Shown piece after piece: positions 996-13,884 of a DNA stretch of 36,936 nucleotides. This stretch comes from Prevotella sp. (GTDB taxonomy: Bacteria > Bacteroidota > Bacteroidia > Bacteroidales > Bacteroidaceae): positions 1 to 36,936 of the forward strand of contig JAFSNR010000123.1 in NCBI GenBank assembly GCA_017443345.1, read 5' to 3'. Positions within the stretch are counted from its first letter, which is position 1. The number at the start of each line of letters is the position of its first letter. The position numbers and the translations under genes are program-made. The notes beneath the pieces were generated by a model. That model was given only the letters and a program-made list of their open reading frames with translations. It was not told where the DNA came from and searched no databases.

Positions 996-1003
996 TACTT
1001 TTG
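996..1003 (+). promoter_or_regulatory. TAnnTTTG promoter box for the first 11-nt array gene
   Basis: Reads TACTTTTG. Transcription would begin around 1007-1010, which is where the 11-nt periodic array begins. No clear upstream TTTG element was found at the usual spacing. Confidence 0.55.
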
Positions 1004-1009
1004 CTCAGC

Positions 1010-1262
1010 CTAACCTCAATACACTCAACGAGCAGTCAGCGATTTCTCGGCATCGTTGTGTGGTAAATGTGCGGCACTTGTCCGGTATATGTCCGGTTTC
1101 TGACCGAACAAGTAGCGGACAAATAGCGAGCAAATAGCGGACAACGGTCGAAGCTACTCCGAAGCATCACCGAAGGAACACCGTAGGAACTTCGAAGGAA
1201 CGCTGAGGCTATGATAATGGTAGAACAAGAGAGACCTGTCAGGGGCCGGCAACAAATAGGAG
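1010..1262 (+). repeat. Degenerate 11-nt tandem array filling the 5' leader (23 units)
   Basis: The leader divides into 23 consecutive 11-nt units without a visible indel. The clearest run is 1076-1207, where units such as ACTTGTCCGGT (1076), CAAATAGCGGA (1131), GCATCACCGAA (1164) and GGAACTTCGAA (1186) share a CCGAA-like tail at positions 7-11. The head changes gradually from unit to unit: CAA heads, then GC heads, then GGA heads. Units 1043-1075 and 1208-1262 are weaker and are included because they stay in register. The array starts a few bases after the promoter box and stops 9 nt before the ATG at 1272. Because 11 is not a multiple of 3 and stops are present, it is not a coding repeat. 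A matching arrangement precedes the homologous gene at 12239-12979. Confidence 0.8.
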
Positions 1263-1271
1263 ACAAGAGTG

Positions 1272-2009
1272 ATGAAGAAGAAAAGTACAGGTTTGGGACT
1301 GCTGATACCCAAGACTCTCCGCATCGGAGGCGTGACATTCTATCAGCGTGGCGGTCAGGTGATTGGCCGTGTGTCGGAATCGCGTGAGAAACGTAGCAAT
1401 ACGCTTCCACAGTTCATCCAACGTCAGAAGATGCGGCATACGACGGCGCTTTGGAAGATGTTACGCTACCAGGAGCCGATGTTCACTGAGCGGACAAACG
1501 CCTATCAGGACTTCGCGTCGCTGGCCAACGGCCTGCCAGTGGTGTATGTAGAGAAGACGCGGATGACAGATGCGTCGTTTCTAATGCCTGGCATACCAGT
1601 GAGTAACGGCAAACTGCCCACCATCGAACAGCACTTGGGCGAGGTTGATGGCACACCCGCCCTGCTGACCGACCTAAAGGCGAGCGAATGGACACGGGGA
1701 GAAATACTTTGGCTCTACACCGCAGAGCAGCACACAGAGGAAGCCTTCCCCCGTCTGTACTTCAGTCGCAAGGAAGTGTCGAGGCGCGAGATGACCGCTG
1801 TTGACGGACGACTGGCGCTGCTGGGCAACGAGTTTGCCGACCCGATGAAGGGCTGGGCACTGGTGAGAGTGGTCGATGACAAATGTTCGCCGCAGACCAT
1901 CCAGACCCGCTGCACTCTCTTCCAGCAATACATGACCGACGAGGCCCTGCAGCGAGCCGCCAAGAGTTACGGTGGCATCACCGACAAGCCCTTCTTGTCG
2001 CCGAGATAA
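1272..2009 (+). CDS. Conserved protein of unknown function, copy 1 of the array-led family
   Basis: A 245-residue protein without signal peptide or membrane segment. It is homologous along its whole length to the product of 12239-12979. The best shared blocks are RSNTLPQFIQRQKMRHT (about residues 40-57), SFLMPGIPVS-GKLPTI, LGE-DGT-AL-TDL, KGWALV, CSPQTI-TRCTL-QQY, and the C-terminus SYGG---FLSPR. The N-terminal pattern of a short strand with FYQRGG followed by SNTLPQFIQRQK is reminiscent of DUF6266-like Bacteroidetes proteins, but I would not assign it on that. An in-frame GTG lies at 1269; ATG 1272 was chosen because it matches the start of the homologue and keeps the same 9-nt gap after the array. 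No function is known. Confidence 0.85.
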   Translation: MKKKSTGLGLLIPKTLRIGGVTFYQRGGQVIGRVSESREKRSNTLPQFIQRQKMRHTTALWKMLRYQEPMFTERTNAYQDFASLANGLPVVYVEKTRMTDASFLMPGIPVSNGKLPTIEQHLGEVDGTPALLTDLKASEWTRGEILWLYTAEQHTEEAFPRLYFSRKEVSRREMTAVDGRLALLGNEFADPMKGWALVRVVDDKCSPQTIQTRCTLFQQYMTDEALQRAAKSYGGITDKPFLSPR

Positions 2010-11408: not shown

Positions 11409-11888
11409 TTATATTAGCGAATACAAGTAACTTCCAAATGATATGAGCAGCCAGATCATCAGGACGATGAGTAACATCAGGACGATGAGTACAATGGCTG
11501 ATTGCAGGGCCCGCTGGTTCACTTGCTTGATGATGGCTTCGTCTCCATCCACGAATCCCTGAATCATCTGCATGTTCTTGATGTTGGCACGATGGAAGAA
11601 GTCGATGATGTCGCCAACGAAGAACGGTATCATGCCCATCAGCACATCCCGCAGCGCATTATTCAATACTGCCAATGTCAGCGGAATGCTCTTGATGACA
11701 CGGGAGGAGAAATAGACGAATGGCACAACGCTGAGCAGAGCTATGGCATCGCCCCAACCAGGGATGACGCCGATGAGGGCATCCAGATAGTAACGATCCA
11801 TATAGCGGGATAGTCCCTGCATCGTCTGATAGGCTTTGTTGTCCATCAGTCGCTTGCGGCGTTGCAGTCGTTTCTCGTCTTTGTTCAT
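11409..11888 (-). CDS. DUF4112 domain-containing membrane protein
   Basis: A 159-residue protein. The N-terminal 25 residues are very basic. The family motif YYLDALIGVIPGWGDAIALL begins near residue 33, followed by a hydrophobic segment and GMIPFFVGDIIDFFHRAN near residue 85, then one strongly hydrophobic C-terminal membrane segment (about 127-155). These are hallmarks of DUF4112, a small bacterial membrane family of unknown role. It is 3 bp downstream of the small YccF-like gene and is probably cotranscribed with it. Confidence 0.85.
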   Translation of the reverse strand: MNKDEKRLQRRKRLMDNKAYQTMQGLSRYMDRYYLDALIGVIPGWGDAIALLSVVPFVYFSSRVIKSIPLTLAVLNNALRDVLMGMIPFFVGDIIDFFHRANIKNMQMIQGFVDGDEAIIKQVNQRALQSAIVLIVLMLLIVLMIWLLISFGSYLYSLI

Positions 11889-12065: not shown

Positions 12066-12238
12066 TCTAATCTCTTTCTAAAAGTTTCTGACTATTAGAC
12101 GTATTTGGGAGGAAAAAAGTTGCACGGTTTCATATCGTAGTCATCTTGCGTGGCTGTTTCATCACCTGCATGATATCGGTGATGTCAGTTGGCTTTGCTT
12201 CTCTGATAATCCTCATAACTTTTTGTGATTTTGCACAA

Positions 12239-12979
12239 TTATCTTGGCGAGAGGAAACCAGGCTCAGTGAGACCACCATAACTGTCGGCAGCCTTTTCCA
12301 GAGCATCCTCCGTTGTGTACTGCTGGTACAAGGTGCAACGGGTAATGATGGTCTGCGGCGAACAGCGTTCACCCTTCACCAGGACCAGTGCCCAGCCTTT
12401 CATATCGTCGGCAAACGCATCGCCTTTCAGCACATAATGTCCATCCACGAATGACATTTCCTCCCACGCAACCTCGCGCACGCTGAACTGCACCTGGGGC
12501 ATGTCGCAGTCGATGTGCTGCTCAGCGGTGTAAAGCAACAGCTTTGTCTGAGGCACCCAAGCTTCTCCCCTAAGGTCAGTCATCAGGGCTGCTGTGCCAT
12601 CTATTTCCCCTAATTGCTCGTTGATTGTTGGCAACTTGCCGTCACTCACCGGAATGCCGGGCATCAGAAACGAGGCACTGCCCATCAGCCCAATATTCGG
12701 CACAAAGACCACTGGCAGGCGATTAGCCAGCGATGCGAAATTCTGGTACGCAGTCTGACGTTCAGTAAACATCGTCTCACAGTATTTCAGCATTTTCCAT
12801 AGCGCAATGGTGTGCCGCATCTTTTGCCGCTGAATAAACTGAGGCAGCGTGTTACTACGTCTCTCGTTGGAGTTCGAAACACGAGTAATTATCTTGCCCT
12901 GCTTCATGTAGGTCGTTACCCCTGCTTTGCGGAGGCTCCCTATCAGCATCAATCCCTTTGAAGTACTTTTCTTGCTCAT
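12239..12979 (-). CDS. Conserved protein of unknown function, copy 2 of the array-led family
   Basis: A 246-residue homologue of 1272-2009, about 60% identical by eye. It has the same blocks: RSNTLPQFIQRQKMRHT-ALWKML, ASFLMPGIPVSDGKLPTI, LGEIDGTAALMTDL, DMKGWALVLV, CSPQTIITRCTLYQQY and the terminal SYGGLTEPGFLSPR. There is no signal peptide and no membrane segment. The N-terminal 40 residues, including the strand pair VTTYMKQGKIITRVSNS, differ more between copies than the rest. The gene is preceded by a 30-unit 11-nt array ending 9 nt before its ATG, exactly as in copy 1. The 170 bp between this gene and the YccF-like gene downstream show no recognisable feature. Confidence 0.85.
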   Translation of the reverse strand: MSKKSTSKGLMLIGSLRKAGVTTYMKQGKIITRVSNSNERRSNTLPQFIQRQKMRHTIALWKMLKYCETMFTERQTAYQNFASLANRLPVVFVPNIGLMGSASFLMPGIPVSDGKLPTINEQLGEIDGTAALMTDLRGEAWVPQTKLLLYTAEQHIDCDMPQVQFSVREVAWEEMSFVDGHYVLKGDAFADDMKGWALVLVKGERCSPQTIITRCTLYQQYTTEDALEKAADSYGGLTEPGFLSPR

Positions 12980-12988
12980 TTTTCCGTT

Positions 12989-13318
12989 CCTTTTCTAATT
13001 CATATTATGTTCTACACTAATTCTTGTCATGTTATGCTCTGATTCCTGTCACGTCCTGCTTCAATATACCTCCATCGTCTCTTCACTCCACCTCATATTC
13101 TGGTCCTGTTCTAATTATGTTCTTATTCAGTTGTTGTTCAGTCAATCACTGGACAACAATTGGACAACAACTGAACATCAACTGAACAACAACCAAACGA
13201 CAACTGAACAGTAATAGAAGATGGATATTCGTTGCCTACAGGTTGCCTGGGAGGTGAATCTGAGATGAATATGAGATGCATATAAGTTAAATATGAGATG
13301 GACTTGAGATAAATATCT
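12989..13318 (-). repeat. Degenerate 11-nt tandem array filling the 5' leader (30 units)
   Basis: Read on the minus strand from 13318, the leader splits into 30 units of 11 nt with no indel. Three neighbourhoods are evident. Early units look like TCATATTCATC (13274-13264). Middle units look like TTCAGTTGTTG (13175-13165) and TCCAATTGTTG. Late units look like ACATGACAAGA (13032-13022) and ACATAATATGA. Adjacent units are more alike than distant ones. Complementary middle units also allow a hairpin, with an 11-nt perfect inverted repeat between 13126-13136 and 13165-13175. The array begins some 14 nt from the promoter box and ends 9 nt before the ATG at 12979, matching the register of the first array despite unrelated sequence. 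Confidence 0.85.
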
Positions 13319-13331
13319 TTTGTTCTGTCTG

Positions 13332-13339
13332 CAAAGATA
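13332..13339 (-). promoter_or_regulatory. TAnnTTTG promoter box for the second array-led gene
   Basis: Minus strand reads TATCTTTG. A TTGG element lies 19 nt upstream, at 13359-13362 on the plus-strand numbering, approximating the -33 element. The expected transcript start falls near 13328, close to the first 11-nt unit. Confidence 0.65.
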
Positions 13340-13497: not shown

Positions 13498-13884
13498 ATG
13501 AACAGTTATTTGCTTATTGGGCTTGAAAGCCTAATTGACCACATCGGATGTATTCGTGACCTTGGTATTGCTTATTGGAAAAAAGCAAATAAGAAAATGC
13601 AGATAGGGGATATCGTATATCTGTTTATTTCGGATATAGAACACAATCGTGTGATGTATCGTTTGGAGGTCGTTGATGTTGATAGTGTAAGAGATGATAA
13701 GAAGTATTGGCGAGGCACGTATAAACACGATACGTCTTGCTTCAAGTTGAGAAATACGAGCGGCGTTTATCATGGTGAAGGACTTGACCATGATGATTTG
13801 GAAAAGCATGGTATTAGCAGATATGTCCAGTACAAAAAATTAAATAAAGAACAGGCTGAATGGCTTGAAAAGCATTTTGTATAG
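13498..13884 (+). CDS. Small EVE/PUA-like domain protein (tentative)
   Basis: A 128-residue protein starting MNSYLLIGLESLIDHIG, with a middle part KMQIGDIVYLFISDIEHNRVMYRLEVVDVD and a second strand set around KYWRGTYKHDT. The order of a short strand, a GD-V-lF/Y strand followed by a V-v-V strand resembles EVE/PUA-like domains, which bind modified bases in nucleic acids. The resemblance is by pattern only. The gene is markedly more AT-rich than its surroundings and has a clear AAAGGAG ribosome-binding site, rare in this window, which together suggest acquisition. It is followed 3 bp later by a lipoprotein gene. Confidence 0.65.
   Translation: MNSYLLIGLESLIDHIGCIRDLGIAYWKKANKKMQIGDIVYLFISDIEHNRVMYRLEVVDVDSVRDDKKYWRGTYKHDTSCFKLRNTSGVYHGEGLDHDDLEKHGISRYVQYKKLNKEQAEWLEKHFV

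Follow-up and report, generated by a model that had tools for sequence, protein, structure and literature searches.

Repeats of roughly one helical turn occur at promoters in ParR/parC partition systems, in which the repeats lie at the promoter of the system and are bound by its own repressing protein (PMC9426499, PMC5016525). ParR of plasmid R1 is described as needing at least two 11-bp repeats, which flank the promoter, and ParR families as not binding one another's sites (PMC9426499, PMC5016525). The array described here, in front of a gene of Prevotella sp., resembles the type II partition locus of plasmid R1 in having tandem, roughly one-turn repeats at a promoter, in our case recognized by motif only. 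It differs in that no ParM-type ATPase gene was found among the five neighboring genes scanned; in that the N-terminus of the encoded protein is predicted to form a sheet and a long helix, whereas ParR is a ribbon-helix-helix protein; in that such arrays can be approximately 30 units long and change orientation at a dyad; and in that the contig is, as far as known, chromosomal. By analogy, the array would nevertheless seem to work most like ParR/parC of plasmid R1 among the known systems, without ParM.

In type III toxin–antitoxin systems, such as ToxIN, tandem repeats act as RNA. Our locus is similar in that tandem nucleotide repeats directly precede a protein gene, but its signals are at the DNA level, and this assignment was rejected on the lack of a Pfam match above the cut-off, of a PADLOC match, and of the RNA signature. 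Tandem repeats in a Bacteroidota genome have been described in Porphyromonas gingivalis as a minisatellite within a MITE (PMC4596501), for which our literature search showed no tie to a repeat-reading gene product. Likeness was also found to the family DUF6266 (PF19781): distant relatives of our protein pass its cut-off, and several related genes have inverted 11-bp arrays, whereas the proteins of the window have no PF19781 match and eight typical DUF6266 loci have no array. Our literature searches returned no paper containing "DUF6266", and those for repeats of 11 nt or 11 bp and for repeats in Prevotella showed nothing on this array.

The window, that is, the whole stretch of 36,936 nt that was analyzed, contains two copies of the gene, with the following features:

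12239–12979, minus strand: copy 2 gene, encoding a 246-amino-acid protein, a remote DUF6266 relative whose N-terminal ~85 residues are the proposed repeat reader
13332–13339, minus strand: TATCTTTG, promoter-like box (TAnnTTTG), to which array phase is locked family-wide
13146–13310, minus strand: promoter-side arm of the copy 2 array, 15 × 11 bp, motif reversed, 12 of 15 units scoring above zero
13145–13145, no strand: dyad, the single base at which motif orientation flips
12991–13144, minus strand: gene-side arm, 14 × 11 bp, motif forward, 14 of 14 units scoring above zero, period weakening toward the gene
996–1003, plus strand: TACTTTTG, promoter-like box of copy 1, assigned by motif
1022–1228, plus strand: copy 1 array with period 11 and the family motif with T at base 2, from the period-11 scan and the motif
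1272–2009, plus strand: copy 1 gene, encoding a protein 63% identical to that of copy 2, with arginine at position 26

The 11-nt periodicity claimed in the original prediction for positions 12989–13318, which in minus-strand reading form the leader of the copy 2 gene, is real. The lag-11 identity of this leader was 0.545, compared with 0.258 ± 0.042 across all 330-nt windows, and the highest lag-11 value in the window (0.555, z = 7.1) was obtained at start position 12980, inside the copy 2 leader, where the maxima at lags of 22, 33, 44, and 55 also fell. Five of the 16 Tandem Repeats Finder rows (period 11 or 22) were within 12995–13316 and two (period 11) were at 1108–1201, and a period-11 scan of the whole window yielded only two segments, 1022–1228 and 13093–13310. 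The strong copy 2 signal is confined to approximately 13093–13310, with values of 0.36–0.42 in the three gene-proximal 66-nt windows. As had also been predicted, the array begins near a promoter-like box, just after TATCTTTG (13339–13332, minus strand), and we take the TAnnTTTG box to be a Bacteroidota promoter element. The count of exactly 30 units needs correction: by motif phase, the array consists of 15 units (13310–13146), one base, and 14 units in the opposite orientation (13144–12991), and because any 330-nt stretch makes 30 units of 11 nt, the original figure was partly arithmetic. In total, 26 of the 29 units scored above zero against the family motif, which was built with the copy 2 leader among others. 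A period-18 tandem repeat (1.9 copies, 100% matches) was also observed at 11457–11491, inside the DUF4112 gene.

The array occurs throughout the gene family. Relatives of copy 2 were detected in 6 of the 100 genomes of a genus sample and in 28 of the 399 genomes of a family sample. Leaders were collected from genome contigs (80 loci kept from 135 relatives) and from further genomes; loci without a usable start codon were left out, and leaders identical over the last 150 nt were removed, which reduced 112 leaders to 96 distinct ones. In the family-wide comparison that had been suggested, the period-11 segment score was at least 17 (median 31.7) in 83 of the 85 leaders of members with a protein score of at least 200, whereas among 313 control regions, taken from in front of further long ORFs of these loci and of the window, two reached 17 and three reached 12. 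By their coordinates, the two controls at 17 or more (L080 and L084) are family leaders reached via another start or strand; the third, in L055 (14.2), precedes an unrelated ORF. The family members without a strong array were L037 (3.0) and L004, the copy on contig C149 (12.2). Although the best period was 11 or 22 in 91 of the 96 leaders, this number includes L037 with its meaningless score of 3.0, and the score-based 83 of 85 is therefore the safer count. L037 has a good protein match and no 11-nt array in the upstream 440 nt; L017, from the same MAG, has a long array.

Several family copies are found per genome. In addition to copies 1 and 2, the genome of the window has a third full copy on contig C134 (89% identical) and the distant copy on C149. 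A three-unit pattern with at most one mismatch occurred at eight places in this genome, all in the copy 2, copy 1, and C134 leaders, and the reversed control had no match there. The C149 leader, which has a different motif, was not matched by the pattern.

Alignments of related leaders show array length to drift by the gain and loss of whole units. In 15 leader pairs with an array identity of at least 0.90, at which the alignment is safe, gaps of at least 7 nt measured 11, 22, or 33 nt in 10 of 10 cases. The expectation of changes in steps of 11 between close relatives was thus borne out for these gaps but not for all, as the same pairs contained eight gaps of 1–5 nt, all at most approximately 46 alignment columns from the start codon. 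In 36 pairs with an array identity of at least 0.82, multiples of 11 made up 37 of 98 in-array gaps, compared with 15 of 144 upstream gaps; the pairs used for gap analysis come from few clusters and are non-independent.

A single 11-nt motif, which runs in the opposite direction in the left half of the array, was fitted over 82 right and 71 left halves. Its information was 3.26 and 3.82 bits, compared with means of 1.25 and 1.51 bits in 20 column-permuted sets each, and the right half correlated with the reverse-complemented left half at 0.89, compared with 0.15 without reversal; these bits and correlations are inflated by relatedness among the leaders. The arm-to-arm phase relation was the same across the flip in 75 of the 83 leaders. 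Units adjacent to the dyad approximate C[A/T]A-N-[C/T]-G-[A/G]-A-C-A-[A/T] (A3, 0.89; G6, 0.90; A8, 0.87; A10, 0.84). The original prediction had held the units of copies 1 and 2 to differ completely, but with phase and orientation known, their majority units are CAACTGAACAA (copy 2) and ATACCGGACAA (copy 1), and both fit one family motif, approximately CWANYGRACAW. The notion of spacing conserved without sequence falls with this, as an 11-nt motif is shared, and the bases that vary in it do so along with residues of the protein that the gene encodes. Of the two explanations built on that premise, each keeps some ground: the period holds in widely diverged leaders, as a requirement on period would have it, and the length changes in steps of 11, as expected of a repeat-generating process.

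Nor do the two copies have the same phase to the start codon, as had been supposed: the motif phase to ATG is 0 in copy 2 and 6 in copy 1, and across the family it is spread (R = 0.10, P = 0.73; weighted; 80 leaders, effective 36). The anchor is the putative promoter box instead. The motif phase to the nearest upstream TAnnTTTG box gave R = 0.61, with 0 of 5,000 random draws as high (relatedness-weighted; 57 box-bearing leaders, effective number 22), and, unweighted, 35 of 61 leaders shared two neighboring phases relative to it. On these comparisons, in which promoters are motif guesses, the array keeps its phase with the promoter box and not with ATG.

The variable bases covary with residues of the encoded protein. 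From the 83 leaders, those with fewer than four usable units or a protein score below 250 were dropped, leaving 80 (effective 36), and mutual information, corrected by average product, was calculated for every pairing of a protein column with a motif base. After correction, residue 26 with base 2 ranked first (z = 10); the next pairs joined base 4 to residues 82, 58, and 57, in that order, and base 9 to residue 42. Uncorrected, the pair of residue 26 and base 2 ranked eighth; the pairs ahead of it included base 4 with residues 82 and 58 and, in third place, base 4 with the C-terminal column 240. When rows in which the residue or the base was some other letter were dropped (78, 80, and 70 kept), residue 26 (K/R) was concordant with base 2 (A/T) in 77 of 78 rows, residue 82 with base 4 in 78 of 80, and residue 58 with base 5 in 66 of 70. 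Specifically, lysine 26 was accompanied by A2 in 37 of 37 cases and arginine 26 by T2 in 40 of 43; alanine or serine 82 by a base 4 of C or G in 46 of 46 and other residues at 82 by a base 4 of A or T in 32 of 34; and threonine or valine 58 by C5 in 49 of 50. Isoleucine 58 was accompanied by T5 in 17 of 22 cases, and thus with exceptions to the code. Among residues 3–246, the best-separating columns were 26 for base 2, 82 for base 4, and 58 for base 5, columns 244–246 coming second to fourth for base 5. Base 9 was best separated by the C-terminal column 246, above residue 42, so the link to base 9 is weak.

The trees of the family are weakly supported, and concordance was compared with simulated independent traits on three of them. 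On a tree from residue 95 onward, the residue and base changed 9 and 10 times (residue 26, base 2), 13 and 14 times (residue 82, base 4), and 9 and 11 times (residue 58, base 5), and the observed concordance was never reached in 20,000 simulations each. On a tree from residues 1–94 minus six columns, the corresponding residue/base changes were 5/5, 8/8, and 9/9, and neither on this tree nor on a whole-protein tree minus the six columns were the observed values reached in 15,000 simulations each. Joint inheritance of the leader and N-terminus is therefore not a ready explanation. Well-supported branches provided only 2–5 independent pairs per test, fewer than a sign test needs, and pairs in the opposite direction averaged 0.0 in every run. 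Motif distance tracked N-terminal identity (partial r = −0.61, given C-terminal identity) and not C-terminal identity (+0.09).

A held-out check drew on another 30 leaders, mainly distant ones, of which eight were judged. Base 2 fitted residue 26 in L196, L210, L211, L201, and L206; L213 fitted only after a one-base shift of the unit, L198 failed, and L227 was ambiguous. Base 4 fitted residue 82 in L196, L210, L211, and L206 and failed in L201, and base 5 fitted residue 58 in L196 and L210 and failed in L211. Paralogs within one genome were more divergent than expected, with a mean distance at bases 2, 4, and 5 of 0.60 in same-genome pairs (a small sample of 15 pairs from 13 genomes, 3 pairs from the genome of the window), compared with 0.447 ± 0.048 in identity-matched pairs from different genomes (P = 0.0005, 2,000 draws). 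Thus L030 and L036, which belong to a single MAG and are 77% identical, have CAACTGAACAA with K26 and CTACTGGACAA with R26, respectively. This excess of base differences suggests that each paralog probably reads its own array.

The structure of the copy 2 protein was predicted with a pLDDT of 87.9 and a pTM of 0.79. The predicted elements are a three-stranded sheet (E15–18, E21–26, and E29–34) followed by two helices (H45–67 and H77–85), which places residue 26 at a strand end, residues 57 and 58 in the first helix, and residue 82 in the second. The protein had no Pfam match above the cut-off (one chance-level match, E = 0.15) and no match in NCBIfam, and sequence searches up to E = 1 found no relative of solved structure. 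Neither window protein matched PF19781 up to E = 1 or reached its curated cut-off. PHROGs gave weak matches only (best E = 0.019), none above the cut-off. A defense system was rejected as a candidate, as PADLOC had no match among the five proteins scanned.

Because residue changes match base changes across dozens of relatives, we consider it probable that the array is a series of duplex DNA sites, one per turn, read by the DUF6266-like product of its own gene. Each 11-bp unit would correspond to one helical turn and one site for the encoded protein, the sites facing one way on one side of the dyad and, as the leader comparison indicates, the opposite way on the other. The N-terminal ~85 residues would read the 11-mer, base 2 by way of residue 26 and bases 4 and 5 by way of residues 57, 58, and 82; the covariation is observed, and the corresponding contacts are putative. 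We infer that the protein binds the duplex in rows on one helix face and thereby regulates its own gene. Protein copies would line up along this face from the dyad outward, beginning beside the transcription start, and the assembled protein may repress the gene or set its level. Indels of lengths other than whole units between the promoter and the array core would be disfavored because they would break the helical phase.

A more far-reaching reading, which we advance tentatively and at somewhat less than an even chance, is that of a new class of self-insulating nucleoprotein element: a small cassette made up of a promoter, an inverted 11-bp array in helical phase, and a protein that assembles only on its own array through an amino-acid-to-base code and a previously undescribed DNA-binding domain, the N-terminus of this branch of DUF6266, with the copies within a cell orthogonal to one another like plasmid incompatibility groups. 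If the copies are truly insulated, this would be a new case of within-genome divergence in specificity. For the copy 2 gene, a rumen bacterial gene of a family without known function, the comparison offers a concrete candidate job, the recognition of its own leader. The family also provides approximately 80 natural protein–site pairs with a code-like relationship, useful for studies of domain–site co-change, and a long array that keeps its phase to the promoter even as its sequence drifts and whole turns are added to or lost from its length.

The protein might bind the array in a non-regulatory role, as part of a mobile or centromere-like cassette in which the array is a site of recombination, partition, or assembly, but this seems unlikely to us. 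Among 49 related locus pairs, 20 had the leader and gene as their sole aligned segment of more than 60 nt, and in the cases inspected, homology began close to the promoter box and ended close to the stop codon; several copies per genome, more divergent in motif than matched pairs in the manner of plasmid incompatibility groups, also accord with a cassette. However, the other 29 pairs share further flanking segments, neither a motor nor a recombinase was found among the neighboring genes scanned, no empty site was met, and relatives were absent from the phages, plasmids, and viral contigs searched, a result on which a phage or plasmid origin was also set aside.

Action as RNA, whether as a long leader hairpin or as a transcript bound by its own protein, is improbable in our estimation, even though 11 nt is also one turn of A-form helix. 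In most members, ATG follows and the promoter-like box precedes the array, which is thus probably transcribed; complementarity between the inner arms is 73% (at a center chosen for complementarity), and both window leaders gave hairpins centered on the dyad when folded. However, the fold z-scores of these two leaders were only −1.14 and −1.20, Rfam had no match in the window at the gathering threshold, and in L114 and L131 the arrays lie upstream of the nearest promoter-like box. Pairing RNA should tolerate G-U but not A-C, with each unit fitting its own partner best, whereas in 79 leaders the ratios to expectation from the core outward were 0.30, 0.68, 0.85, 0.97, and 0.85 for G-U and 0.46, 0.62, 0.80, 0.96, and 0.97 for A-C. 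Register 0 was best in the core (0.727 versus 0.662 and 0.679), where the center had been chosen, and outside the core it was no better than the best register 11 or 22 nt away. Since G-U pairs are not favored and register is not kept, a structured RNA leader was set aside as the main reading, and duplex DNA appears the likelier target. The 11-nt period might conceivably also match the spacing of RNA polymerase pauses.

It is very improbable that a host DNA-binding or nucleoid protein recognizes the array and that the match between residues and bases arose from joint inheritance or exchange of the leader and N-terminus. The leader does adjoin the N-terminus, and the family trees are weakly supported, but the co-changes persist even on the N-terminal tree, beyond all 15,000 simulations for each pair, and copies within one genome have different motifs. 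A functionless minisatellite produced by neutral slippage, to which the likeness of adjacent units and whole-unit length changes would point, can be given almost no credence, as period, flip, and promoter phase are kept across diverged leaders and the motif bases follow protein residues.

With recognition of the array by its own gene product as the preferred reading, the kinship with DUF6266 extends the comparison. Six distant relatives (L113, L114, L116, L119, L120, and L123) pass the PF19781 cut-off via N-terminal stretches while the window proteins do not, and the latter are thus only remote DUF6266 kin. In a phylum sample of 118 genomes, 9 contained PF19781. In the phylum and order loci, where genes were caught via an N-terminal pattern in only part of 28 loci, inverted 11-bp arrays were seen by eye near DUF6266-related genes in L131, L136, L140, L143, L148, and L152, the last being a locus of the genome of the window, and period 11 was absent from eight typical DUF6266 loci (L126, L127, L129, L130, L132, L139, L141, and L142).

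The five scanned neighbors of copies 1 and 2 comprise DUF4112, FMN reductase, and GNAT genes and two without assignment. The GNAT acetyltransferase gene (2023–2679) follows copy 1, and just after the copy 2 stop codon, at 12081–12238, lies the start of a short minus-strand ORF with a GNAT-like beginning, by eye, that is cut short. A divergent gene of 128 amino acids (13498–13884), without a convincing Pfam match, adjoins the array on its other side. Its relatives, 76–95% identical, were found in five other genomes (L230–L234), where the other five query genes were absent from the 2.3–3.4 kb covered; these loci are thus uninformative on insertion. Other periods were observed at DUF6266 genes elsewhere. 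In L133, a second DUF6266-like gene on the minus strand (reverse-complement position 2617) has a strong period of 8, and not 11, in its upstream 450 nt (best score 28.4 at period 8, followed by 16 and 24). In L134, the DUF6266 gene at 1464 is preceded by a period-10 array with units like GTCAAAACCA, perhaps a one-turn array with another spacing.
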